Made by a program: the position numbers and the translations under genes. From Phaeacidiphilus oryzae TH49 (GTDB taxonomy: Bacteria; Actinomycetota; Actinomycetes; Streptomycetales; Streptomycetaceae): a stretch of DNA of 64,000 nt. The DNA lies in contig NZ_JQMQ01000005.1 in NCBI RefSeq assembly GCF_000744815.1, positions 442,055-506,054 on the forward strand, written 5' to 3'. Of the stretch, positions 25,366 through 38,384 are shown piece by piece; within the stretch, counting starts at the first letter, position 1; every line of letters begins with the position of its first letter. The notes under the pieces are model-generated. The model was not told where the DNA came from, made no database searches, and saw only the letters and a program-made list of their open reading frames with translations.

Positions 25366-26052
25366 TCAGGCCCCGCTGTCCTGCGCCCCGCGCGCCCCGC
25401 CGTCCTTCGCCCCGCCGTCCTTCGCCCCGCCGTCCTTCGCCCCGCCGTCCTTCGCCCCGCGGTCCGGGCCGGCCGCGGACTCCTTCGCGAGGGTCCTGGC
25501 GATCTCGTGGCCCCAGGCGCGGATCTGCTCGGGGTTGCGGTAGTCGCCCTCGACGCCGCGCCGGGCCATGTTGCGCCCGATCCGCCCGGCGTCCTCGGAG
25601 TTCAGCCGCCCGCCGAAGGTCCGGTGGCCGCGGGCGTGCAGCCGGCTCATGATCCGCAGCACCCCGGCGATCGGCGGGATGTCCTTCTCCTCCGCGCTCC
25701 GGTCCAGCGGCCCGCTGCTGAAGATCCACACCGGCATCCGGCGCAGCTCGGCGGAGTGCCGGCGGGCGAACCTGCGGGCGTCCCGGTGCCAGCGGTACAT
25801 GTACAGGGCCCCGCCGAGGACCACCGCGTCGTACGCCTTGAGCTCGCCCACCACGGTGGCCGGCAGCACGTCGACGGCCAGACCGTCCTCGCGGAAGGCC
25901 TCCCCCAGCTCCACGGCGATCCCCCGGGTCCCGCCGCGCCGGGTGCCGTACGCGACCAGGATCCGTCCTCCGCCCTGGTCGGCCGCCGGGTCGGTGCCGC
26001 GCTCGGGGCCGGGCTCGGGCTCGGTGCCGCGCTCGGGCTGACGATCGTTCAT
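25366..26052 (-). CDS. Flavodoxin-domain protein with AKDGG-repeat tail
   Basis: This 228-residue protein has an FMN-binding flavodoxin domain (about residues 30-190): the phosphate loop is VAYGTRRGGTRGIAVELG and VVLGGALYMYRWHRDARRF resembles HemG/menaquinone-dependent protoporphyrinogen oxidase-like flavodoxins. An acidic, disordered N-terminus (EPEPGPERGTDPAADQ) precedes it, and the C-terminus carries four AKDGG repeats encoded by a 15-bp tandem repeat. The ATG has GAGGAG six bases upstream. It is the first gene of the operon with the 2-oxoacid oxidoreductase, so it could be that enzyme's one-electron carrier instead of or besides ferredoxin. It is divergent from the response regulator gene. 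Confidence 0.88.
   Translation of the reverse strand: MNDRQPERGTEPEPGPERGTDPAADQGGGRILVAYGTRRGGTRGIAVELGEAFREDGLAVDVLPATVVGELKAYDAVVLGGALYMYRWHRDARRFARRHSAELRRMPVWIFSSGPLDRSAEEKDIPPIAGVLRIMSRLHARGHRTFGGRLNSEDAGRIGRNMARRGVEGDYRNPEQIRAWGHEIARTLAKESAAGPDRGAKDGGAKDGGAKDGGAKDGGARGAQDSGA
25394..25465 (-). repeat. 15-bp tandem repeat encoding AKDGG units
   Basis: Four identical copies of GCCCCGCCGTCCTTC (25394-25453) and a partial fifth lie at the 3' end of the flavodoxin gene. On the coding strand each encodes Ala-Lys-Asp-Gly-Gly. Identity at the DNA level, including third positions, indicates recent slippage expansion. Confidence 0.9.
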
Positions 26053-26205: not shown

Positions 26206-26955
26206 GTGCACGTGCTGGTGGTGGAGGACGACAAGGGCATCGCCGACTCGCTGGTGCGCGGGTTGGAGCGGGACGGCTACCGCGCGCGGACGGTGGGCAC
26301 CGGGCAGGAGGCGCTGGAGGCCTCGGGCGAGGCGGACGTCGTCCTCCTCGACCTCGGCCTGCCCGACCTGGACGGGGTGGAGGTCTGCCGGCGGATCCGC
26401 ACCCGCTCGGACGCCGCGATCATCGTGGTGACCGCGCGCGGCGAGGAGGCCGACCGGGTCGCGGCACTGGACGAGGGCGCCGACGACTACCTGGTCAAGC
26501 CCTTCGGCCTGGCCGAGCTGCTGGCCCGGATCCGGGCCGTGCTGCGCCGCACCCGCCCGGCCGAACCGGAGCTGCTGCGGCACGGGCCGCTCGCGGTCGA
26601 CCTCCGCACCCGCAAGGTGCTGGTCGACGACCGCGAGATCGCCCTCACCCCCAAGGAGTTCGACATCCTGGAATGCCTGGCCACCGACCCCGGAAGGGTG
26701 GTCACCAGGCAGGAGATCCTGGAGCGCGCCTGGGACGCCCACTGGTACGGGCCGACCAAGGTGCTCGACGTCCACATCGCCGCCCTGCGCCGGAAGCTGG
26801 GCGTCCCCGGCCTGGTCGAGACGGTGTACGGGCGCGGCTTCCGGCTCGGCGACCGCGACCAGTGGCCCGACTCCGGCTCCGGACCCGACTCCCGCTCCGG
26901 CTCCGGGCCCGCCTCGCGGCCGGGCTCCGCGGGTTCGACCTCCGAGCCGCGATGA
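26206..26955 (+). CDS. OmpR-family response regulator
   Basis: This 249-residue regulator has a receiver domain (residues 1-115) with acidic pocket Glu7-Asp8-Asp9, phospho-acceptor Asp49 (VVLLDLGLPD), the Thr in IIVVTARG and the Lys in LVKPFG. A winged helix follows at about 128-220 (IALTPKEFDILECLATDPGRVVTRQEI, LDVHIAALRRKLG, ETVYGRGFRL). The tail is Ser/Gly/Pro-rich. It starts with GTG and is probably leaderless. Its stop overlaps the kinase start (ATGA). The pair stands between the 2-oxoacid oxidoreductase operon and the membrane redox operon and may control either or both. Confidence 0.94.
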   Translation: MHVLVVEDDKGIADSLVRGLERDGYRARTVGTGQEALEASGEADVVLLDLGLPDLDGVEVCRRIRTRSDAAIIVVTARGEEADRVAALDEGADDYLVKPFGLAELLARIRAVLRRTRPAEPELLRHGPLAVDLRTRKVLVDDREIALTPKEFDILECLATDPGRVVTRQEILERAWDAHWYGPTKVLDVHIAALRRKLGVPGLVETVYGRGFRLGDRDQWPDSGSGPDSRSGSGPASRPGSAGSTSEPR

Positions 26956-28343
26956 CCCGCCGGATCGCGCTGGTCGTCCTGGCGCTCATCGCGGTGCTCC
27001 TCACCGCCGCCGTGGTCCCCCTCGGCCTGTCGCTGAGCGGGCGCGAGCGGACCTCCTTCCGGGACGAGACGGCCGGCACCGCCCGCTCCATCTCCTCGGC
27101 CGCCGAGGAGCATCTCTCCGACCATCAGAACGCCCCCTCCCTCCACGAGACCCTCGCCGAGGCGGAGGAGCACGGCCAGTGCGCGGTGGTCTACGACACC
27201 CGGATGCGCCTGGACGCCGCGACCGCCTGCCCGTCCTCCGCCGACGGCGGACCCGGCCAGTCCGACCGGCTGGAGGACCTCTCCCGCCAGGTGCTCGCCC
27301 ACCCGGAGACGGCCTTCGCCCAGTACGGCGACCGGCTGCTGGTGGCGGTGCCGGTCGGCGACGAGACCCGTCCGGTCGGCGCGGTCGCGCTCTCCCGCTC
27401 CGCCGACCCGCTGGACGACCGGATCGGCGCGATGTGGATGCGGCTCGCCCTGATCGGCGCCCTCGGCCTGGTCGCCGGGGCGCTGGTCTCGGTGGCGCTG
27501 GCCCGCTGGGTCGGCCGCCCGCTGCTCGCCGTGGACGCCGCCGCGGACCGGCTCGGCGAGGGCGACCTGGAGGCGCGCGCCCCGGACGACCACGGGCCGG
27601 CCGAGGTGCGGCGGCTCGGCAGCACCTTCAACACCATGGCCGCCCGGCTGGAGGCCCTGGTGCACGGCCACCGGGCGGTCGTCGCCGACGTCGCCCACCA
27701 GCTGCGCACCCCGCTGGCCGCGCTGCGGCTGCGGTTGGACCTGCTGGCCGCCGACGCCGAGCCGGGCGCCGACGCCGAGCGCGAGCTGACCGCCGCCCAG
27801 GAGGAGATCGCCCGGCTCTCCCGGCTGGTGGACGGCTTGCTCGCGGTCGAGCGGGCGGAGAACGCCGTGCCGCGGCCGGTCACCGTCCGGGTCGACCGGG
27901 TGATCATGGACCGGGTGAGCGCCTGGGAGCCGGTCGCCCAGGAGCGCTCGGTGGCCCTCGAGGTACGCCGCCGGGAACCCCGGCTGGCCGCCCGGATGGG
28001 CGAGGGCGACCTGGAGCAGATCCTGGACAACCTGATCGCCAACGCCCTGGACGCGCTCCCGGAGGGCGCCCACGTCCGGATCGGCGCCGAGGCGCTGCCC
28101 CGCCGGGGCGCGGTGGTGGTCCGGGTGGTGGACGACGGGCCGGGGATGAGCGCCGAGGCCCGGAGCACGGCCTTCCACCGGTTCGGCAATCCGGAGGCCT
28201 CCGGCAGCGGCCTCGGCCTGGCCATCGTCCACCGCCTGGCCACCGCCAACGGTGGCCGGGTCCGACTGGCCGACACGCCCGGCGGCGGGCTCACCGCGGT
28301 GATCGAACTTCCCGCGGAGCGCGGAATCTTTACCGGTTCTTAG
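26952..28343 (+). CDS. HAMP-domain sensor histidine kinase
   Basis: This 463-residue kinase has a helix at residues 5-28, an extracytoplasmic sensor of about 130 residues (with two Cys, in GQCAVVYD and ATACPSS), a second helix near 160-183, a HAMP linker, and the dimerisation box VVADVAHQLRTPLAALR with phospho-acceptor His249. The ATPase domain shows N-box DNLIANALDALP, G1 VVDDGPGMS and G2 SGSGLGLAIVHRL. The two sensor-domain cysteines could respond to redox state, which is inference. It is co-translated with the response regulator. The membrane redox genes start 108 bases downstream. Confidence 0.93.
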   Translation: MTRRIALVVLALIAVLLTAAVVPLGLSLSGRERTSFRDETAGTARSISSAAEEHLSDHQNAPSLHETLAEAEEHGQCAVVYDTRMRLDAATACPSSADGGPGQSDRLEDLSRQVLAHPETAFAQYGDRLLVAVPVGDETRPVGAVALSRSADPLDDRIGAMWMRLALIGALGLVAGALVSVALARWVGRPLLAVDAAADRLGEGDLEARAPDDHGPAEVRRLGSTFNTMAARLEALVHGHRAVVADVAHQLRTPLAALRLRLDLLAADAEPGADAERELTAAQEEIARLSRLVDGLLAVERAENAVPRPVTVRVDRVIMDRVSAWEPVAQERSVALEVRRREPRLAARMGEGDLEQILDNLIANALDALPEGAHVRIGAEALPRRGAVVVRVVDDGPGMSAEARSTAFHRFGNPEASGSGLGLAIVHRLATANGGRVRLADTPGGGLTAVIELPAERGIFTGS

Positions 28344-28451: not shown

Positions 28452-28903
28452 GTGACCAGCGAGCACGCCCCCTTCGGCCAGGCCGTCCGCAGACGCGACC
28501 GCGGACTGCGCCGAGTCCGCGGCACCACCCGTCTCGCGGCCCTCGCGGCCGCCGCGGGGACCGCGGCGCTGGGTGTGGGCTACGCGCAGGCCGTCCCCGG
28601 CAAGACCGGCGGATCCGGCAGCACGACCGGCACCACGAGCACCAGCAGCCCCACCCCGTCGGCCGCGCCGAGCAGCGCCCCCGCCTCCGCCCCTGCGAGC
28701 AGGCACCCGAGCCCCTCGCGGACGGCCGGCACCCGGCACCACTCGACGAGGACGTCCACGGGCACCTCGTCCGGGAGCGGCCTGCGGGCCCCGACCCACG
28801 CGCCGACGGCCGCCCCCACCACGCAGGCCCCGCGCCCGCACCGACCACGCAGGCCCCGGCGCCCGCACCGGCGCCGACCCACACCCGCTCGGGGGCCTCG
28901 TGA
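28452..28903 (+). CDS. Secreted Ser/Thr/Pro-rich protein with apparent frameshift, upstream of ApbE
   Basis: The GTG at 28452 has AAGGAG upstream and starts MTSEHAPFGQAVRRRDRGL, followed by a signal-peptide-like helix (TTRLAALAAAAGTAALGVGYAQA) and a long Ser/Thr/Pro/Ala-rich stalk. At about 28832 the frame is lost: the repeat segment reads CAGGCCCCGCGCCC, while its second copy 33 bases on reads CAGGCCCCGGCGCCC. Adding the missing G continues the stalk (APAPTTQAPAPAPAP) to TGA at 28901-28903, giving 150 residues and a GTGA overlap with the ApbE start. That exact overlap argues for a single-base error or recent mutation. No FMN-binding domain is visible. In related operons this position often holds the ApbE substrate, so the stalk could anchor a flavin; that is inference. 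Confidence 0.65.
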
Positions 28904-29868
28904 CGGCCGCGGTCTTCCGCGCCCTGGGCACGAACGCCGAGGTCCACACCGCCCTCCCGGACCGCCGGGCGCTGGCGGCGGCGGAGGCGGAGGCACGCGC
29001 CGAACTGTCCGCGATCGACCTGGCCTGCAGCCGGTTCCGCGCGGACTCCGAGCTCTCCTGGGCGAACGCCGCCGCCGGCGGCGGCCCGGTCTCCGTCGGC
29101 CCGGTGCTGGCGGAGGCGCTGGACGCGGCCTGGCGGGCGGCCGAGCTGACCGGCGGAGCGGTCGACCCCACGGTCGGCCGGTCCGTCGCCGCCCTCGGCT
29201 ACGACCGGGACTTCTCCCTGGTCGCCGCCCGCCGCCCGGAGGAGTTCGGCCCGCTGACGGCGGCCCGTCCGGCCCCCGGGATCGCCTCGGTGGACTGGGA
29301 CCCCGCGTCCCGCACCCTCACCCTCCCCGCCGGCACGGCGCTCGACCTGGGCGCCACCGCCAAGGCCCTGGCCGCCGACCGCTGCGCCCGGCGCGCGGCC
29401 CGCGCGGCCGGCTGCGGGGTCATGGTCAACCTCGGCGGGGACCTGTCCATCGCCGGGGAGCCGCCGGAGGGCGGCTGGCGGGTGGAGATCGCCGACGACC
29501 ACGCCGCGCCGGACCCCGAGCCCGGCCCGGTGGTGGTGCTCCGCGACGGCGGGCTGGCCACCTCCGGCACGGCGGTACGCCGCTGGCAGCGCGCCGGCGG
29601 CGGCACCGTCCACCACATCGTCGACCCCCGCACCGGCCGCACCCCGCCAGCGGTCTGGCGCACCGTCAGCATCGCCGCCGCCGACTGCGTGGACGCCAAC
29701 ACGGCGGCCACCGCGGCCCTGGTGCTCGGCGAGGACGCGGCCGACTGGCTGCGCGGCACGGGGCTGCCGGCCCGGCTGGTCCAGGAGGACGGCGCCGTCC
29801 TCCGTCTCGGTGACTGGCCGGAGCCCGAGCGGCTGTTGGAGCAACACACGAAGGGAGGCCGCGGATGA
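28900..29868 (+). CDS. apbE: FAD:protein FMN transferase (ApbE family)
   Basis: This 322-residue enzyme attaches FMN from FAD to a Thr or Ser of target proteins by a phosphoester bond. Family marks are FRALGTNAEV at the N-terminus, SCSRF-like CSRFRADSELS, DPTVGRSVAALGYD, DLGATAKALAADR, MVNLGGDLSIAG, GGLATSGTAVRRW and the Mg-binding HHIVDPRTGRTPP. No signal peptide is obvious, so it may act inside or be presented by another route. The GTG at 28900 overlaps the repaired stop of the previous gene, and the stop overlaps the next ATG (ATGA). Its substrate in this operon is not obvious because no classical FMN-binding domain gene is adjacent. Confidence 0.93.
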   Translation: MTAAVFRALGTNAEVHTALPDRRALAAAEAEARAELSAIDLACSRFRADSELSWANAAAGGGPVSVGPVLAEALDAAWRAAELTGGAVDPTVGRSVAALGYDRDFSLVAARRPEEFGPLTAARPAPGIASVDWDPASRTLTLPAGTALDLGATAKALAADRCARRAARAAGCGVMVNLGGDLSIAGEPPEGGWRVEIADDHAAPDPEPGPVVVLRDGGLATSGTAVRRWQRAGGGTVHHIVDPRTGRTPPAVWRTVSIAAADCVDANTAATAALVLGEDAADWLRGTGLPARLVQEDGAVLRLGDWPEPERLLEQHTKGGRG

Positions 29869-30425
29869 CCTGGCTCTGGTATGCCACCCGCGCGGGCGGA
29901 ACCGTCGCCCTGGTGCTGCTCACCGCGACCGTGGTACTCGGGATCGCCGCCGGAGGGCGGTACGCCCCGCGCAGGATCGCCCGCTTCGAGGTCTCGGCGC
30001 TGCACCGCAACCTGTCGGTGCTGTCGCTGGTCTTCCTGGCCCTCCACATCACCACCGCGATCGCGGACAGCTTCGTCCCGATGACCTGGACGGACGCCTT
30101 CCTGCCGTTCACCTCCGCGTACCGCTCGTTCTGGGTCGGGCTGGGGGCGGTGGCCCTGGACCTGCTGCTGGCGGTCGCGCTGACCAGCGCGGTCCGGCTG
30201 CGGCTCGGCCGCCGCCGCTGGAAGGCCGTCCACTGGCTGGCGTACGGCGCCTGGCCGGTGGCCATGCTCCATGGCTACGGCATCGGCACCGACAGCAAGC
30301 TCGGCCCGCAGCTGGTGCTCTACCTGATCTGCGCGGCGGCCGTCGGCTTCGCCGGTGTGCTGCGGCTGCGCCGGGCCCGCCCGGCCCGGCAGCGGAGCCG
30401 GTCCACCGAAGGGAGCCGGGCATGA
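29865..30425 (+). CDS. Ferric-reductase-like transmembrane heme protein
   Basis: This 186-residue protein has about five membrane helices. His residues suited to bind heme b are in ALHRNLSVLSLVFLALHITT and in WKAVHWLAYGAWPVAMLHGYG, the paired-His arrangement of the FRD/MsrQ-type domain. Such proteins pass electrons across the membrane. It is coupled to ApbE upstream and to the NuoF-like gene downstream by ATGA overlaps, so it belongs to the same redox unit. It lacks the cytosolic FAD/NAD domains of full ferric reductases; the NuoF-like protein could supply that function. Confidence 0.9.
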   Translation: MTWLWYATRAGGTVALVLLTATVVLGIAAGGRYAPRRIARFEVSALHRNLSVLSLVFLALHITTAIADSFVPMTWTDAFLPFTSAYRSFWVGLGAVALDLLLAVALTSAVRLRLGRRRWKAVHWLAYGAWPVAMLHGYGIGTDSKLGPQLVLYLICAAAVGFAGVLRLRRARPARQRSRSTEGSRA

Positions 30426-31744
30426 CCTCCTACGCCCAGACCGCGCGCCCGAACGGCGGGCAGCCGAGGCCCGCCGACGGCCCGTACGGCTCCCGGCTGC
30501 TCGCCGGCTGGTACGAGACCGGGCGCAGCGCGGACCTGACCGAGCATCTGCGCCGGCACGGCGCGCCGCCCCGCTACCCCGCCGAGGTCCTGCTGGACGC
30601 CGTCGAGCGCTCCGGGCTGACCGGGCGCGGCGGCGGCGGCTTCCCCACCGGCCGCAAGCTGCGCACCGTCGCGGCGGCCGGCGCGCGCCGCCGCCGCGGG
30701 GTGCCGGTGGTGGTCGGCAACGGCATGGAGAGCGAGCCGGCCAGCCGCAAGGACGACACCCTGCTGGCCATCGCCCCGCACCTGGTGCTGGACGGGCTGG
30801 TGCTGGCCGCCGCCGCGGTCGGCGCCGACGAGGCCCATCTGTGCCTGCCGCGGACCGAGCCGGAGCGGATAGCCCAGCTGGAGGCCGCCGTGGCCGAGCG
30901 CGAGCGCCGCCGGGTGGACCCGTCGGGCCTGTCCGTCCAGGTGCACGCGCTGCCGCACCACTTCGTCTCCAGCGAGGAGACCTCGCTGGTGCGCTGGCTG
31001 AACGGCGGCGAGGCCCGTCCGCTGGCCACTCCCCCGCGCCCGTTCGAACGCGGGGTCGGCAAGCGGCCCACGCTGATCGACAACGTGGAGACCCTCGCCC
31101 AGCTCGCCCTGATAGCCCGTCACGGACCGGACTGGTTCCGGGCCGTGGGCACCGCCGAGGACCCCGGCACCGCACTGGTGACGGTCTCCGGAGCGGTCGC
31201 CGTGCCCGGCGTCTACGAGGCGCCGCTGGGGACCCCGGTGGCCGGGCTCCTCCAGCTGGCCGGCGGGGTGACCGCCGCTCCGCTGGCGCTGCTGGCCGGC
31301 GGCAGCTTCGGCACCTGGCTGCCCGCGGACACCCCGCAGGCCACCGGCCGGCGCGGGGCGGGCATCCTGACCGCGCTGCCGCAGGGCGCCTGCGGCCTGT
31401 CCGAGACCGCGGCCATGCTGCGCTATCTCGCCGGGCAGAGCGCCCGGCAGTGCGGGCCGTGCCGCCTCGGGCTGCCCGCGGCGGCCGAGGACTTCGCCCA
31501 ACTGGCCTGGGGCTCGGCCGATCCCGAGCTGCCGTACCGGCTGCGCGAGCGGCTGGGGCTGCTGCCCGGGCGGGGCGCCTGCCGGCATCCGGACGGCGCC
31601 TCCCGGCTGGCCGCGTCCGCGCTCGAGCTGTTCGCCGAGGACGCCCAGCGGCACCTGTACCACGGCCCCTGCCCGGGGGCGCACCGTCCGATCACGGTGC
31701 CGCTGCCCGAGGTGGCGGTCCCCGGAGAGGATGAGTGGCGATGA
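30422..31744 (+). CDS. NuoF-like NADH dehydrogenase (FMN/SLBB/iron-sulfur) protein
   Basis: This 440-residue protein resembles the NADH-oxidising subunit of complex I. The FMN/NADH fold shows TGRGGGGFPTGRKL (residues 63-76) and VVVGNGMESEPASRKDD, an SLBB region follows (VTVSGAVAVPGVYEAPLG), then the cluster-binding helix bundle with SARQCGPCRLGLP and RGACRHPDG. NuoF has C-x2-C-x2-C plus a distant Cys; here the first Cys is missing, leaving three. That would suit a [3Fe-4S] cluster or an outside ligand. It is flanked by ATGA overlaps on both sides. I infer that it feeds electrons from NAD(P)H to the ferredoxin and the membrane hemes. Confidence 0.88.
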   Translation: MTSYAQTARPNGGQPRPADGPYGSRLLAGWYETGRSADLTEHLRRHGAPPRYPAEVLLDAVERSGLTGRGGGGFPTGRKLRTVAAAGARRRRGVPVVVGNGMESEPASRKDDTLLAIAPHLVLDGLVLAAAAVGADEAHLCLPRTEPERIAQLEAAVAERERRRVDPSGLSVQVHALPHHFVSSEETSLVRWLNGGEARPLATPPRPFERGVGKRPTLIDNVETLAQLALIARHGPDWFRAVGTAEDPGTALVTVSGAVAVPGVYEAPLGTPVAGLLQLAGGVTAAPLALLAGGSFGTWLPADTPQATGRRGAGILTALPQGACGLSETAAMLRYLAGQSARQCGPCRLGLPAAAEDFAQLAWGSADPELPYRLRERLGLLPGRGACRHPDGASRLAASALELFAEDAQRHLYHGPCPGAHRPITVPLPEVAVPGEDEWR

Positions 31745-31959
31745 GCCAGTCCACCGGATACCGGCTGACCCTCGATCAGGTCGCCTGCGAGGGCCACGGG
31801 CTCTGCGCCGAGCTGCTGCCCGAGCTGATCGACCTGGACGAGTGGGGCTACCCGGTGTTCCGCGGCACCGAGGTGCCCGCGGAGCTGCTGGCGCACGCCC
31901 GGCGTGCGACCGCGGCCTGCCCCGTCCTGGCCCTGCGCCTGGACCAGGCCCGGTCCTGA
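31741..31959 (+). CDS. [3Fe-4S]-type ferredoxin
   Basis: This 72-residue ferredoxin has exactly three cysteines in the pattern C-x5-C...C-P: Cys16 and Cys22 (VACEGHGLCAEL) and Cys60 (AACPVLAL). This is the small actinobacterial single-cluster type, usually [3Fe-4S], best known as partner of cytochromes P450; no P450 gene is in the window. The ATG overlaps the stop of the NuoF-like gene, so here it is more likely the acceptor of that dehydrogenase. It is acidic and cytoplasmic. Confidence 0.93.
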   Translation: MSQSTGYRLTLDQVACEGHGLCAELLPELIDLDEWGYPVFRGTEVPAELLAHARRATAACPVLALRLDQARS

Positions 31960-32017
31960 CGGAGGGTCGGCCGGCCTGAAGAAGTTCTTAACCACCGCTA
32001 CGGGAGACTGCCCGATC

Positions 32018-32668
32018 GTGATCACCAGTTCGACCAGGGACGCCCGGGAGACGGAGCCGGCACCCGCCGGGGGAAGCGGCACGGCGGGGCCCGAGGGGAA
32101 CGAGCGGCTCACCGCGCTCACCGGTGCCGTGCTGCTCGTCCTCTTCGCCGCCCAGGGCGTCACCCTCCTCTCCATCAGCTCCCTGCTCACCGAGCACTTC
32201 TTCATCGGCCTGCTGCTGGTCGGCCCGGTCTGCCTGAAACTCGGCAGCACCTGCTACCGGGCGGTGCGCTACTACACCGGCCATGCCCCGTACCGCCGCA
32301 AGGGGCCGCCGGCCCCGCTGCTGCGGCTGGTGGGGCCGCTGGTCGCGCTGCTCAGCATCGCGGTGCTGGGCAGCGGCCTGCTGCTGGCCTTCGGCTGGCG
32401 GGAGATCGGCCCGTTCCCGGTGCTCTTCCTCCACAAGGCGAGCTTCTGGGCCTGGGCCGCCGTGATGGCCGTGCATGTGCTGGCGTACATCTGGCGGCTG
32501 CCCCGGCTGATCGCCGCCGACCTGGGCCGGCGCCGCGGCTCGCGGCACGGGGCCCCGGGACCCGGCCGGGCGGGGCTGCGCTGGTCGCTGGTGGCCGCCT
32601 CGCTGGCCGCGGGGACACTGCTGGCCATGGCCGAGGTGCACCTGGTCACCACCTGGCGGCAGGGCTAG
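32018..32668 (+). CDS. Cytochrome b561-like membrane protein
   Basis: This 216-residue protein has about four or five hydrophobic helices after a 35-residue soluble N-terminus. Candidate heme-ligand His residues lie in LLTEHFFIGLLLVG, VLFLHKASFWAW, VMAVHVLAYIW and MAEVHLVTTW, the layout of di-heme cytochrome b561/formate-dehydrogenase gamma-like proteins. I chose the GTG at 32018 with GGGAG upstream; upstream frame to 31904 lies mostly inside the ferredoxin gene. It ends the redox operon, 58 bases after the ferredoxin, and gives the module a second membrane electron carrier beside the ferric-reductase-like protein. Confidence 0.82.
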   Translation: MITSSTRDARETEPAPAGGSGTAGPEGNERLTALTGAVLLVLFAAQGVTLLSISSLLTEHFFIGLLLVGPVCLKLGSTCYRAVRYYTGHAPYRRKGPPAPLLRLVGPLVALLSIAVLGSGLLLAFGWREIGPFPVLFLHKASFWAWAAVMAVHVLAYIWRLPRLIAADLGRRRGSRHGAPGPGRAGLRWSLVAASLAAGTLLAMAEVHLVTTWRQG

Positions 32669-34657: not shown

Positions 34658-35245
34658 ATGCCCCTGCCGAGTGAATCCGGCGGCATCACCATCACCCTGA
34701 CCATCAACGGCGAGAAGCGCACCCTTCCCGTCGACTCCCGCAGCACCCTCCTTGACGTGCTGCGCGAGCGGCTCGACCTGACCGGCAGCAAGAAGGGCTG
34801 CGACCAGGGCCAGTGCGGCGCCTGCACGGTGCTGCTTGACGGCCGGCGGGCGCTGTCCTGCCTGCAGCTGGCGGTCGCGGCCGAGGGCCGCGAGATCACC
34901 ACCATCGAGGGCGTCGCCGACGGCGACACCCTCCACCCGGTGCAGCAGGCCTTCCTCGAACTCGACGGCTACCAGTGCGGATACTGCACTCCCGGGCAGA
35001 TCTGCTCGGCGATAGCCGTCCTCGACGAGCACGCGGCCGGCTGGCCCTCCGCGGCCACCGAGGACGTCCGCCCGGAGGCCGGACCGCCACCGCTGACCGC
35101 CGAGGAGATCCGCGAGCGGATGAGCGGGAACCTCTGCCGCTGCGGGGCGTATGTGTCGATCGTCAAGGCCGTGCAGCAGGCGGCGGGCGCCGGCGGCGGC
35201 AAGGACGGTAAGGACGGCAAGGGCGTCAAGGAGGCCTCCGCGTGA
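34658..35245 (+). CDS. (2Fe-2S)-binding small subunit of second PaoABC-type oxidoreductase
   Basis: This 195-residue subunit parallels the gene at 2964-3509: GSKKGCDQGQCGACTVLLDG for the plant-type cluster, YQCGYCTPGQICSAI and GNLCRCGAYVSIV for the second [2Fe-2S] cluster. It differs by a Lys/Gly/Asp tail (KDGKDGKGVKEASA) encoded by short repeats. No Tat signal is present. The ATG has GAAGGACG upstream. The stop overlaps the GTG of the FAD gene. It is the first gene of the three-gene operon. Confidence 0.95.
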   Translation: MPLPSESGGITITLTINGEKRTLPVDSRSTLLDVLRERLDLTGSKKGCDQGQCGACTVLLDGRRALSCLQLAVAAEGREITTIEGVADGDTLHPVQQAFLELDGYQCGYCTPGQICSAIAVLDEHAAGWPSAATEDVRPEAGPPPLTAEEIRERMSGNLCRCGAYVSIVKAVQQAAGAGGGKDGKDGKGVKEASA

Positions 35246-36243
35246 GGGAGTTCGCATACCGCAGGGCCACCGACCTGGACGGCGCCCTGGCGCTGCTGGC
35301 GGAGGCGCCGGACCCGGCCGAGGCGCGGTTCCTCGGTGGGGGCACCAATCTGGTGGATCTGATGAAGTCCGGGGTGGAGCGGCCGTCGCTGCTGGTGGAT
35401 GTGCGGGAACTGCCGTTGGGCGGGATCGAGTCGACCGCGGAGGGCGGATTGCGGATCGGGGCCACGGTCAGCAACAGCGACCTGGCCGCAGATGGGGAGG
35501 TGCGGCGGCGCTATCCGCTGCTGGCGCAGGCGGTGCTGGCCGGGGCCTCGGGCCAGCTGCGCAACATGGCCACGGTCGGCGGCAACCTGCTGCAGCGCAC
35601 CCGCTGCGGCTACTTCGCCGACGTCAGCCGCCCGTGCAACAAGCGGGTCCCGGGCAGCGGCTGCCCGGCCATCCAGGGCGAGCACCACAACCACGCCATC
35701 CTGGGCGCCTCCCCGCACTGCGTGGCCGTCCACCCCTCCGACATGGGGGTGGCGCTGGCCGCGCTGGACGCCGTGGTGACCTACCGCACCGCGCAGGGCG
35801 AGGGGCGGCTCCCGCTCACCGACTTCTACCTCCCGGTCGGGGACTCCCCGCACCGGGAGACCGCGCTGCCGCCGGGCGCCCTGATCACCGGTGTGGTCCT
35901 GCCGCCGGCCCCGGTCGCCGCCCACTCGCGCTACCGCAAGGTGCGCGAGCGCGCCTCCTACGCCTTCGCGATCGGCTCGGTGGCGGCCGCCCTGGCGGTC
36001 GAGGGGGGCACGGTGCGGCAGGTGCGCCTGGCCCTGGGCGCGGTCGCCTCCCACCCCTGGCGGGCCCGGGCCGCCGAGGCGGCGCTGACCGGCCGCCCGG
36101 CCACCCCCGCCTCCTTCGCGGCCGCCGCCGAGGCCGAACTGGCCACCGCCGCACCCCTGCCCCACAACGGCTACAAGGTCACCCTCCTCCACAACCTCAT
36201 GGTCGCCGTCCTGACCGAACTCACCCAGGAGGCCACCCGATGA
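35242..36243 (+). CDS. FAD-binding medium subunit with [4Fe-4S] insert, second copy
   Basis: This 333-residue subunit matches the paralogue at 1936-2967. It has the FAD loop FLGGGTNLVDLMK, the core MATVGGNLLQRTRC, and the same four-cysteine insertion (RTRCGYF, RPCNKR, GSGCPA, SPHCVAVHPSD) that marks the PaoB/YagS type with an additional [4Fe-4S] cluster. It starts with GTG overlapping the small-subunit stop and ends with ATGA overlapping the large subunit. From 35320 to 35520 codon use is somewhat less GC-biased at third positions (CTGGTGGATCTGATG-type runs), perhaps a mosaic segment. Confidence 0.95.
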   Translation: MREFAYRRATDLDGALALLAEAPDPAEARFLGGGTNLVDLMKSGVERPSLLVDVRELPLGGIESTAEGGLRIGATVSNSDLAADGEVRRRYPLLAQAVLAGASGQLRNMATVGGNLLQRTRCGYFADVSRPCNKRVPGSGCPAIQGEHHNHAILGASPHCVAVHPSDMGVALAALDAVVTYRTAQGEGRLPLTDFYLPVGDSPHRETALPPGALITGVVLPPAPVAAHSRYRKVRERASYAFAIGSVAAALAVEGGTVRQVRLALGAVASHPWRARAAEAALTGRPATPASFAAAAEAELATAAPLPHNGYKVTLLHNLMVAVLTELTQEATR

Positions 36244-38384
36244 CCGTCAGCACCGGTGTCACCGGCACCGCCGCCACCCGCCTCCGGGAGGTCGGCGCGG
36301 CCCGCACCCGGGTCGAGGGCCTGGCCAAGGTGACCGGCGCGGCCCGCTACGCCGGCGAGCACGAGTTCGCCGAACTCGCCCACGGCTGGCTGGCGCTGTC
36401 CACCATCGCGCGCGGCCGGATCACCGCCCTGGACGACGGGCCGATCCTCGCCATGCCCGGCGTGCTCACCGTCCTCCACCACGGCAACGCCCCGCACCTG
36501 GAGCCGACCGAGAACCGGTTCGGCACCGACCCGACGCTGATGCTGCTGCAGAACGACCGGGTGCCGCACGCCGGCTGGCCGGTCGCGCTGGTCGTGGCGG
36601 AGACCTCGGAGCAGGCCCGGGAGGCCGCCGAGGCGCTGGCCGCCCACATCGAGTACGAGGAGGAGCCGCACGACACGGTCCTCACCGCGGACCACCCCGG
36701 CCTGCGCTCCGACGACTCGCGGCAGACCGAGAAGGGCGACGTGGAGGCCGGGCTCGCGGCCTCGGCGGTGGTCGTGGACGAGGAGTACACCACCCCCGAG
36801 GAGCACCACAACGCGATGGAGCCGCACGCCAGCACGGCCCGCTGGGAGGGCGGCCGGCTGGAGGTGGTGGACTCCAACCAGGGCTCCTTCCTGGTCGCCC
36901 AGGACCTGGCGAAGATCTTCTCGCTGGACGCCGCCTCGGTCCGGGTCCGCGCCGAGCACGTCGGCGGCGCCTTCGGCTCCAAGGGCTCGACCCGCCCGCA
37001 GGCGGTGCTGGCGGCCATGGCCGCGACGGTCCTCCAGCGTCCGGTACGGGTGGTGCTGACCAGGCGTCAGATGTTCTCGCTGGTCGGCTACCGCAGCCCC
37101 ACCGTGCAGCGGGTCCGGCTCGGCGCCGACGCCGACGGGCGGCTGCGCGCCTTCGACCACACCTCGTCCTGCCTGACCTCCTCCGTCTACGAGTTCGTCG
37201 AGCAGTGCTCGGCCTTCGGCCGGGTGATGTACGACGCGTCGGACGGCCACCGCACGGCGGACCGGGTGGTGCCGCTGGACGTCCCCACCCCGCGCTGGAT
37301 GCGGGGCCCCGCCCAGGCGCCCGGCTCCTTCGCGGTGGAGTCGGCGCTCGACGAGCTGGCCGAGAAGTGCGGGATCGACCCGGTCGAGCTGCGGGTGCGC
37401 AACGACCCGGCCGCCGGGCCGGTCTCCGGACTGCCGTTCAGCACCCGGCGGCTGCCGGAGTGCTTCCGGGAGGGTGCCCGCCGCTTCGGCTGGGCGGACC
37501 GGGACCCGCGCCCGGGCGTCCGCCGGGACGGCCGCTGGCTGCTCGGCACCGGCACCGCCGCGGCCGTCTACCACTCCAGCGCGGCCCCCTCGACGGCCTC
37601 GGTGACGGCGGAGCCGGACGGCGGCTTCACCGTCCGGATCACCGCCGCCGACATCGGCACCGGCGCGCGCACGGCGCTCACCCAGATCGCCGCCGACGCG
37701 CTGGAGGTGGCGCCGGGCCGGATCCGGATGCGGATCGCGGACAGCGACTTCGGCCCGGCGATGATCGCCGGCGGCTCGATGGGCACCCGCTCCTGGGCCT
37801 GGGCGATCACCGCGGCCGCGGCTGAGCTGCGCGAGCGGCTGGCGCTGCTGGGCCCCGGCGGAGCGGTGCCGCCGGAGGGGATCACCGTCCGCTCGGACAC
37901 CACGGACGCCATCCGCGCCCTCGCCCAGCGCGAACGGCACACCTTCGGCGCCCAGTTCGCGGAGGTGGCGGTGGACCCGCTGACCGGCGAGGTGCGGGTG
38001 CGGCGGATGCTCGGGATGTTCGCGGCCGGCCAGGTGGTCAACCCGCTGACCGCCCGCAACCAGCTGGTCGGCGGAATGATCTGGGGCATCTCGATGGCGC
38101 TCCACGAGGAGGCCGTCCGCGACCCGGCCACCGGCGCGCTGGCCAACGGCGATCTGGCGGGCTACCACGTGGCGGCCAACGCCGACGTCCCGCTGGTCGA
38201 GGCGGACTGGGTGGACGACCCGGACCCGGAGGACCCGGTGGGGGTGAAGGGCGTCGGCGAGGTCGGCATCGTCGGAGTGGCGGCGGCCATCGCCAACGCC
38301 GTGTGGCATGCGACCGGCGTCCGGCACCGGCGGCTTCCGCTGCGCCCGGACCGGATCCTGACGGCGGGCACCGCCGTCGGCTGA
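36240..38384 (+). CDS. Molybdopterin-binding large subunit of second PaoABC-type oxidoreductase
   Basis: This complete 714-residue subunit shows what the truncated copy at the left edge would look like. Marks are KVTGAARYAGEHEF, NAMEPHAS, EHVGGAFGSKG, ADIGTGARTALTQIAAD and, near the C-terminus, GVKGVGEVGIVGVAAAIANA, whose Glu is the expected catalytic base at molybdenum. No export signal is present. It closes the operon 34658-38384 and is followed by a strong hairpin. No XdhC-type maturation gene is adjacent to either operon, although PaoABC enzymes need one (PaoD); it must be encoded elsewhere. Confidence 0.95.
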   Translation: MTVSTGVTGTAATRLREVGAARTRVEGLAKVTGAARYAGEHEFAELAHGWLALSTIARGRITALDDGPILAMPGVLTVLHHGNAPHLEPTENRFGTDPTLMLLQNDRVPHAGWPVALVVAETSEQAREAAEALAAHIEYEEEPHDTVLTADHPGLRSDDSRQTEKGDVEAGLAASAVVVDEEYTTPEEHHNAMEPHASTARWEGGRLEVVDSNQGSFLVAQDLAKIFSLDAASVRVRAEHVGGAFGSKGSTRPQAVLAAMAATVLQRPVRVVLTRRQMFSLVGYRSPTVQRVRLGADADGRLRAFDHTSSCLTSSVYEFVEQCSAFGRVMYDASDGHRTADRVVPLDVPTPRWMRGPAQAPGSFAVESALDELAEKCGIDPVELRVRNDPAAGPVSGLPFSTRRLPECFREGARRFGWADRDPRPGVRRDGRWLLGTGTAAAVYHSSAAPSTASVTAEPDGGFTVRITAADIGTGARTALTQIAADALEVAPGRIRMRIADSDFGPAMIAGGSMGTRSWAWAITAAAAELRERLALLGPGGAVPPEGITVRSDTTDAIRALAQRERHTFGAQFAEVAVDPLTGEVRVRRMLGMFAAGQVVNPLTARNQLVGGMIWGISMALHEEAVRDPATGALANGDLAGYHVAANADVPLVEADWVDDPDPEDPVGVKGVGEVGIVGVAAAIANAVWHATGVRHRRLPLRPDRILTAGTAVG

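Follow-up and report, generated by a model that had tools for sequence, protein, structure and literature searches.

We analysed a 64,000-nucleotide stretch of the genome of Phaeacidiphilus oryzae TH49 (the window), located on contig C5 of its 7.8 Mb, 6-contig genome, and focused on six genes at 28452-32668 that include apbE, encoding a flavin transferase, and probably form a transmembrane electron-transfer module. A first-pass annotation had placed there a secreted Ser/Thr/Pro-rich protein (here the tether), ApbE, a ferric-reductase-like heme protein, a NuoF-like dehydrogenase, a ferredoxin and a cytochrome b561-like protein. Pfam matches and a reading of the gene overlaps confirmed the six genes in this order, with the end of the first open reading frame (ORF) corrected. 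The features, with FMN for flavin mononucleotide, FAD for flavin adenine dinucleotide and NAD(P)H for reduced nicotinamide adenine dinucleotide (phosphate), are as follows:

28452..28903, plus strand: tether, with a short basic N-terminus, a single hydrophobic segment, a Ser/Thr/Pro/Ala linker and a C-terminal SGAS; frame broken once in a tandem repeat near 28835
28880..28900, plus strand: seven-residue tail H-T-R-S-G-A-S with the proposed FMN acceptor Ser at 28898-28900, then TGA; alignable to D-x-x-[ST]-G-A-[ST]
28900..29868, plus strand: ApbE-type FAD:protein FMN transferase (Pfam), beginning directly at the core domain
29865..30425, plus strand: heme b membrane protein, MsrQ-like or ferric-reductase-like; His 47, 61, 123 and 136 conserved (Pfam, alignment)
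30422..31744, plus strand: NuoF-like NAD(P)H dehydrogenase with FMN, SLBB and Fe-S domains (Pfam)
31741..31959, plus strand: three-Cys single-cluster ferredoxin (Fer4_15; Pfam)
32018..32668, plus strand: cytochrome-b561-like membrane protein, accessory to the module; His 60, 139 and 153 conserved (Pfam match below cut-off)

The first five genes are chained by GTGA or ATGA overlaps, read from the sequence at 28900 (GTGA, tether/apbE), 29865 (ATGA, apbE/MsrQ-like), 30422 (ATGA, MsrQ-like/nuoF-like) and 31741 (ATGA, nuoF-like/ferredoxin); the b561-like gene has no overlap and starts 58 bases after the ferredoxin gene. The ORF from 28452 has its own-frame stop at 29813, and the coding frame leaves it in the repeat, where two near-identical tandem units at approximately 28820-28870 form the site of the frame change. 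Up to 28835, the guanine and cytosine frequencies at the three codon positions of the starting frame were 0.65/0.82/0.95; after it, they were 0.91/0.91/0.68 in the starting frame and 0.74/0.91/0.91 in the frame ending with TGA at 28903. The native end of the tether, APTHTRSGAS, whose stop falls within the GTGA shared with apbE, is similar to the end QPSHTRTGGS of the intact relative at locus L044. The window genome contains a second tether/apbE pair (L064, G000:C4, at approximately 472 kb) in reversed order, with the tether downstream and ending in HTTTGAS, and no MsrQ or NuoF genes adjoin it. As the apbE gene of this pair also has a frame break, base errors in the assembly are the likely cause of the break in the window tether; it may also be a true frameshift.

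The tether has no Pfam family match up to E = 1, and its NCBIfam match is weak and below cut-off. A related-locus search with ApbE by itself gave one locus, and relatives of the module were therefore collected by whole-genome protein searches. The NuoF-like protein served as query in 61 genomes and ApbE in 296 (class) and 396 (phylum), and genes were called with a simple custom ORF caller. Because loci L037-L070 had been selected via the NuoF-like protein, we also counted the ApbE-selected subset alone. At 80 related apbE starts, an ORF was picked as the tether if it ended nearby, contained a hydrophobic segment and had a body of low complexity, without regard to its last four residues; this gave 68 tethers. 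The last residue was Ser in 64 of the 68; 63 ended in [ST]-x-[AGST]-S (38/42 in the ApbE-selected loci) and 37 in the strict form [ST]G[AG]S. The second-last residue was Gly in 49 and Ala in 10 tethers, the third-last Gly in 39 and Ser in 12, the fourth-last Ser in 46 and Thr in 18, and the seventh-last His in 25, Gln in 11, Ala in 8, Asp in 4 and Asn in 2. The frequency of Ser was 0.94 at the tether end vs. 0.06-0.44 elsewhere, and the linker showed no positional conservation. The neighboring ApbEs were diverse, with a median pairwise identity of 46%, and 36 of 39 ApbE clusters formed at >60% identity held a matching tail, 34 of them matching throughout.

Five picks did not match: L102, L121, L141, L106 and L154. 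The L102 protein has TGAS four residues before its end, the L121 protein ends in HATSGATS, and at L141 another gene had been picked, the real tethers there ending in SGGS. No tether was picked at 12 starts; of these, the window, L040, L050, L056 and L064 nevertheless have matching tails, L110 has its tether elsewhere in the locus (end VTSGGS), and the remaining six are L054, L101, L105, L111, L147 and L156. Five further loci match (L161, L163, L164, L166 and L167) and two others stop at contig edges. Plasmids gave a similar picture: an ApbE search at E 1e-20 found 7 records, 4 from Rhodococcus and 3 from Arthrobacter, and in all seven the ORF just 5' of apbE ends in HARSAGS, QTATRAS, HTTTRAS or HTSTRAS. 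Two of these plasmid tethers are annotated as hypothetical proteins (WP_236803067.1, from Arthrobacter sp. FW306-05-C, and WP_058037339.1) and the other five have no gene listed at that place in the PLSDB gene table, which is incomplete. When plasmids were searched with the NuoF-like protein at E 1e-60, nothing matched.

The pattern was also counted outside the tether ends. Among internal four-residue words of the 40 residues preceding the tail, 299/2,516 fitted the loose and 10/2,516 the strict pattern. Of 400 other gene ends close to a same-strand gene, 8 fitted the loose and 4 the strict pattern, and at least 5 and at least 3 of these, respectively, are tethers outside the picked set. These numbers bear on the idea that the tail is a by-product at the nucleotide level, with Gly-Gly-Ser codons at the stop providing a ribosome-binding site and a start overlap for apbE. 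In agreement with it, 41 of the 68 tethers have a stop codon that overlaps the start of apbE (35 as ATGA/GTGA and 6 as TGATG). However, the pattern is found at only 8 of the 400 control ends, mostly tethers themselves, and the terminal Ser is encoded by both codon families (TCN 53: TCA 19, TCC 17, TCG 16, TCT 1; AGY 11: AGC 10, AGT 1). Tails are also kept where no apbE start follows: the L064 tether, downstream of its apbE, has no gene start after its stop, and at L141 two tethers ending in AQSGGS and AHSGGS lie downstream of the ferredoxin gene. The use of both Ser codon families, the 27 of 68 stops with neither overlap and these downstream tails indicate that the tail is conserved at the level of protein and not of nucleotides. 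Such an artifact is thus largely refuted and we find it hardly credible.

The conserved end resembles a known modification site. According to the available part of PMC12052999, ApbE recognizes the target motif D-x-x-[ST]-G-A-[ST] and attaches FMN to its last residue; Ser is accepted there, changing the Asp to Ala has only a minor effect, and motif tags work best at protein termini. The tether tail keeps the spacing of this motif and the protein stops at the acceptor Ser, usually with His or Gln at the place of the Asp. In the window, the tail SGAS fits the [ST]-G-A-[ST] core and its first position is His, so the Asp is lacking. In a more distant subfamily of ApbE, this string lies slightly inside the protein end, as in ATHTTTGASGVIK followed by the stop (L102) and in SHTSTGASGSSS... 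(L171), and this location speaks for a target motif and against a signal for sorting at the C-terminus.

Within the six window proteins and the kinase encoded upstream, [ST]GA[ST] is present in the tether only, and among relatives it was found in 0/71 MsrQ-like proteins, 0/82 ferredoxins, 0/9 b561-like proteins, 4/78 NuoF-like proteins and 3/84 ApbEs. Another module protein as the acceptor was rejected, as none has a conserved [ST]GA[ST]. The first-pass annotation had proposed a flavin acceptor that might be new and lie in the repetitive stalk of the secreted protein. The part about the stalk did not hold, since nothing before the last seven residues is positionally conserved and the data, with a conserved C-terminal [ST]-x-[AG]-S, instead favor the terminal residue of the tether; the secreted protein is the probable acceptor, and probably one of a new type.

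The window ApbE matches PF02424 with 174.7 bits (cut-off 25.6) and ApbEs in PDB at E 8e-22 and weaker; by family, it is an FAD:protein FMN transferase, predicted to transfer to Ser or Thr. It has no visible signal peptide or lipobox, and with signal peptides judged by hydropathy alone, none of 68 ApbEs of its class exceeded an N-terminal hydropathy of 2.0. We divided ApbEs into classes 1 (that of the window) and 2 by their Pfam match in 84 genome entries (27 + 57, four genomes being in both); this sorting was done by hand and excluded short fragments and, where a match was split, its N-terminal half. An FMN_bind gene lay within 2.5 kb of 49/60 class-2 ApbEs vs. 0/103 class-1 ApbEs; counted strictly, the numbers are 48/59 vs. 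1/104, as one continuous match beside FMN_bind (G329:C22:203292) had been labeled class 2. The earlier observation that this ApbE has no classical FMN-binding domain nearby thus extends to its class. The window genome encodes one FMN_bind protein (C5:5564932), with the classical motif IDAVSGATYTS, approximately 5 Mb from the window.

Of 57 genomes examined for orphan status, a part of the 79 with an ApbE match, 22 had exactly one ApbE and no FMN_bind, and 18 of these 22 were ≥90% complete and ≤5% contaminated. Searches of the 22 for NqrB/RnfD and DUF2271, but not for DUF3570, Flavodoxin_4 or FMN_red, found no NqrB/RnfD and no DUF2271 above cut-off, one genome having a DUF2271 match below it. 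In 18 of the 22, the sole ApbE has a matching tail next to it. The other four are G340, where the contig breaks off, G054, whose tail is at another locus, and G207 and G279, in which no tail was found.

These distributions help to weigh two other explanations. The tail could serve in recognition or docking, its partner being ApbE, the MsrQ-like protein or an assembly factor, without being flavinylated itself, the FMN being attached to a linker Ser or Thr or to a distant protein. The lack of the published Asp, the partial degeneracy at position -3 and the presence of FMN_bind somewhere in 24 of the 27 tether-bearing genomes of the first set are in its favor. However, FMN_bind genes adjoin the other class of ApbE, the linker lacks the positional conservation seen at the end, and 22 of 57 genomes have neither FMN_bind nor NqrB/RnfD as a distant target, within the families searched; we consider a docking role unlikely. 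Alternatively, the locus could encode a conventional assimilatory or respiratory reductase, such as a ferric reductase, with the tether as a wall-spanning anchor and ApbE serving a distant FMN_bind protein. According to the available part of PMC8238504, MsrQ-like flavinylation clusters with NAD donors exist and some are linked to iron transporters, and the window genome has its classical FMN_bind protein elsewhere. A conventional reductase is difficult to reconcile with the near absence of FMN_bind around class-1 ApbEs and its complete lack in 22 genomes, and we consider it very unlikely.

The profile hidden Markov model checks suggested in the first-pass annotation placed ApbE, Ferric_reduct, the NuoF-like domains and Fer4_15 above their cut-offs and the b561 profile below. 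The MsrQ-like protein matches Ferric_reduct (PF01794) with 33.6 bits (cut-off 28), and its His 47, 61, 123 and 136 are kept in 51/51, 50/50, 43/43 and 43/43 aligned proteins, respectively, out of 71 sequences. Two heme sites are predicted from these four residues. At L051, L137 and L148, the MsrQ-like proteins have a long C-terminal extension resembling an extracytosolic beta-rich domain. The NuoF-like protein matches Complex1_51K (109.9 bits), NADH_4Fe-4S (PF10589; 44.4 bits, cut-off 23.5) and SLBB (36.1 bits), all above cut-off, and PDB 2fug chain 1 at E 2.5e-45; with 173.9 bits, it remains under the NCBIfam nuoF equivalog cut-off of 558.65. Its N3-type CxxCxxC is changed to [AS]xQCGPC in all 65 NuoF-like relatives, the first Cys always being replaced, in the window by Ala, and therefore its Fe-S site differs from that of complex I. 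The ferredoxin has three Cys and matches Fer4_15 with 54.2 bits (cut-off 22.4). The match of the b561-like protein to Ni_hydr_CYTB (PF01292) gave 20.3 bits, under the cut-off of 30.1, and its AlphaFold2 model, of poor quality (predicted local distance difference test score, pLDDT, 63.4), had no Foldseek match at E ≤ 0.001. The Pfam matches and conserved His thus back the earlier proposal of an NAD(P)H-type NuoF-like donor, a ferredoxin and a bis-heme MsrQ-like protein.

Gene order was counted over 74 related apbE genes, each having 3.6 kb or more of downstream sequence. An MsrQ-like gene was found 3' of apbE in 67, a NuoF-like gene in 64, a ferredoxin gene in 64 and all three in 61 (35/45 in the ApbE-selected loci), in keeping with one conserved module in transcription order. 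The b561-like gene, initially counted as a core part, lay within 9 kb of only 8/74 apbE genes (1/45 in the ApbE-selected subset). The conserved core consists of five genes, for the tether, ApbE, MsrQ-like protein, NuoF-like protein and three-Cys ferredoxin, with the b561-like gene as an accessory, and this five-gene module is widespread in actinobacteria. Separate conservation of the genes, named in the first-pass annotation as evidence against a module, was not the rule: the core stays together in the 61 loci, although L055 and L101 split apbE from the tether, MsrQ-like and NuoF-like genes. At L125, L126 and L127 (genomes G320, G304 and G225), apbE and an MsrQ-like gene occur without a NuoF-like gene, and the tethers end in TKSS, TKTS and SKGS; L127 encodes a second low-complexity protein, with the end TTKGS.

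A response regulator and histidine kinase pair precedes the module on the same strand in 18/74 loci with enough upstream sequence (6/48 in the ApbE-selected subset). The window has such a pair at 26206-28343, identified by eye and not by a profile:

26206..26955, plus strand: OmpR-type response regulator, with an ATGA overlap with the kinase start
26952..28343, plus strand: sensor histidine kinase, a possible regulator of the module

By eye, we also noted a minus-strand flavodoxin-like protein at 25366-26052 (MNDRQPERG...GGRILVAYGTRRGGT, with a repeated KDGGA tail) and, at 34658-38384, three overlapping genes resembling a molybdenum hydroxylase with 2Fe-2S, FAD and molybdopterin subunits.

Taken together, we consider it likely that the locus encodes an NADH-fed transmembrane electron-transfer module whose outer carrier is an FMN bound covalently to the Ser that ends an intrinsically disordered, membrane-anchored tether. 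Lacking a signal peptide, ApbE would take FMN from FAD in the cytosol and attach it to the terminal Ser of the tether before or during export; a cytosolic reaction is the most economical assumption because ApbEs of this class have no strongly hydrophobic N-terminus. The proposed acceptor tail is [HQ]-x-[ST]-[ST]-G-[AG]-S-COOH, in the window HTRSGAS. The mean net charge of the tethers is +3.6 before the hydrophobic segment and -0.6 after it, the former being higher in 60/63, and therefore the predicted topology is N-in, C-out; inserted in this way, the tether would act as a flexible arm that holds the flavin on the outer side of the membrane. Judging from families and gene order, the NuoF-like protein may oxidize NAD(P)H and pass electrons to the three-Cys ferredoxin and on to the bis-heme MsrQ-like protein, which would carry them across the membrane to the tail flavin, and from there they would be handed to some extracellular acceptor. 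Both the flavinylation of the tether and this electron flow we infer from the sequences. For Actinomycetota as a whole, we lean toward the view that a cytosolic ApbE class puts FMN on the C-terminal Ser of disordered single-pass tethers, making them a domain-free swinging-arm carrier that is NADH-fed via the MsrQ-like protein.

Several observations weigh against this interpretation. The strictly conserved Asp of the motif is absent from most tails (Asp in 4/68), and the third-last position is Gly in only 39/68. If a cytosolic ApbE modifies a tail that is exported, the flavinylated peptide would have to be translocated. At L106, L054 (TSKHG) and L154 (PSGG), tether-like ORFs lack the tail; L055 and L101 have apbE separated from the tether; no tether was found beside apbE at L101, L105 and L156, the ApbE-MsrQ-NuoF-ferredoxin block at L105 being otherwise complete, and none at all for L111 and L147, and these loci speak against a strict pairing of ApbE and tether. 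An AlphaFold2 model of the tether-ApbE read-through fusion of L143 left the tail undocked with pLDDT of approximately 27, in a single test of low power. Outside the class, the tail matched in only 10/25 loci, at L195 probably by chance, and 5/25 loci carry Cys-flanked PSG or ASG ends instead. These latter loci from other classes of the phylum (L180, L182, L184, L189 and L190) have Cys-flanked loop ends, for example CYTSPSGNVTCY before the stop, and may represent a second type of acceptor end.

If the interpretation is correct, no natural flavoprotein design would be smaller than a terminal tail of four to seven residues borne by a disordered arm, and such tails would form an unrecognized class of ApbE substrate. 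They would give orphan ApbEs a concrete acceptor and explain many orphan ApbE genomes of the phylum, would imply that the published motif tolerates the loss of its Asp in nature, and would offer a candidate route for extracellular electron transfer in actinobacteria.

MsrQ-like flavinylation systems of Actinobacteria are known from Meheust et al. 2021 (PMC8238504), in the available part of which 31 of 1,797 flavinylation clusters contain a NuoF-like protein (PF10589), with NAD(P)H as the proposed donor, some substrates are still unidentified and 4% of flavinylation genomes are orphans. As in those systems, the window apbE stands beside a PF01794 MsrQ-like protein and a NuoF-like NAD(P)H donor module; unlike the clusters described there, which typically contain a gene with an FMN-binding domain, the module would have a domain-free acceptor. 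That survey retained a cluster only if its ApbE, FMN_bind, DUF2271 or DUF3570 protein had a signal peptide or lipidation site, and because the tether and ApbE pair does not satisfy this filter, most such clusters were presumably passed over. In the open-licence literature searched, titles and abstract openings gave no description of a domain-free C-terminal ApbE acceptor, and earlier accounts may exist elsewhere. In the available parts of PMC12052999, PMC8238504, PMC11334425 and PMC8065229, the ApbE substrates described are folded domains or carry the motif on one. MsrQ/NuoF flavinylation clusters are thus known (PMC8238504), and the domain-free tail acceptor appears to be new.

The NuoF-like protein shares its FMN/NADH, SLBB and Fe-S domains with the NuoF 51 kDa subunit of complex I; unlike in complex I, NuoE and other complex I genes are lacking among the module genes. 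A likeness to the tail is seen in the trypanosomatid fumarate reductase FRDg, which, like the tether as proposed, has its FMN-bearing Ser in a short motif at the extreme end of the protein. In Leptomonas pyrrhocoris FRDg, the N-terminal D3(g/s)x(s/t)(s/g)AS9 carries FMN on Ser9 and an ApbE-like domain is the proposed transferase (the available part of PMC8065229), and this motif provides a precedent both for a terminal acceptor and for Ser at the third-last position. The FRDg motif is, however, N-terminal, contains the Asp and belongs to a large soluble enzyme, whereas the tether tail is C-terminal, mostly lacks the Asp and ends a membrane-anchored disordered protein. ApbE-associated FMN_red proteins of Firmicutes also have motif-like sequences on an unstructured C-terminal extension (the available part of PMC11334425), but there the extension serves a folded flavin-binding domain, which the tether lacks. 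If flavinylated, the tail would be analogous to the lipoyl and phosphopantetheine swinging arms, but placed outside the membrane.

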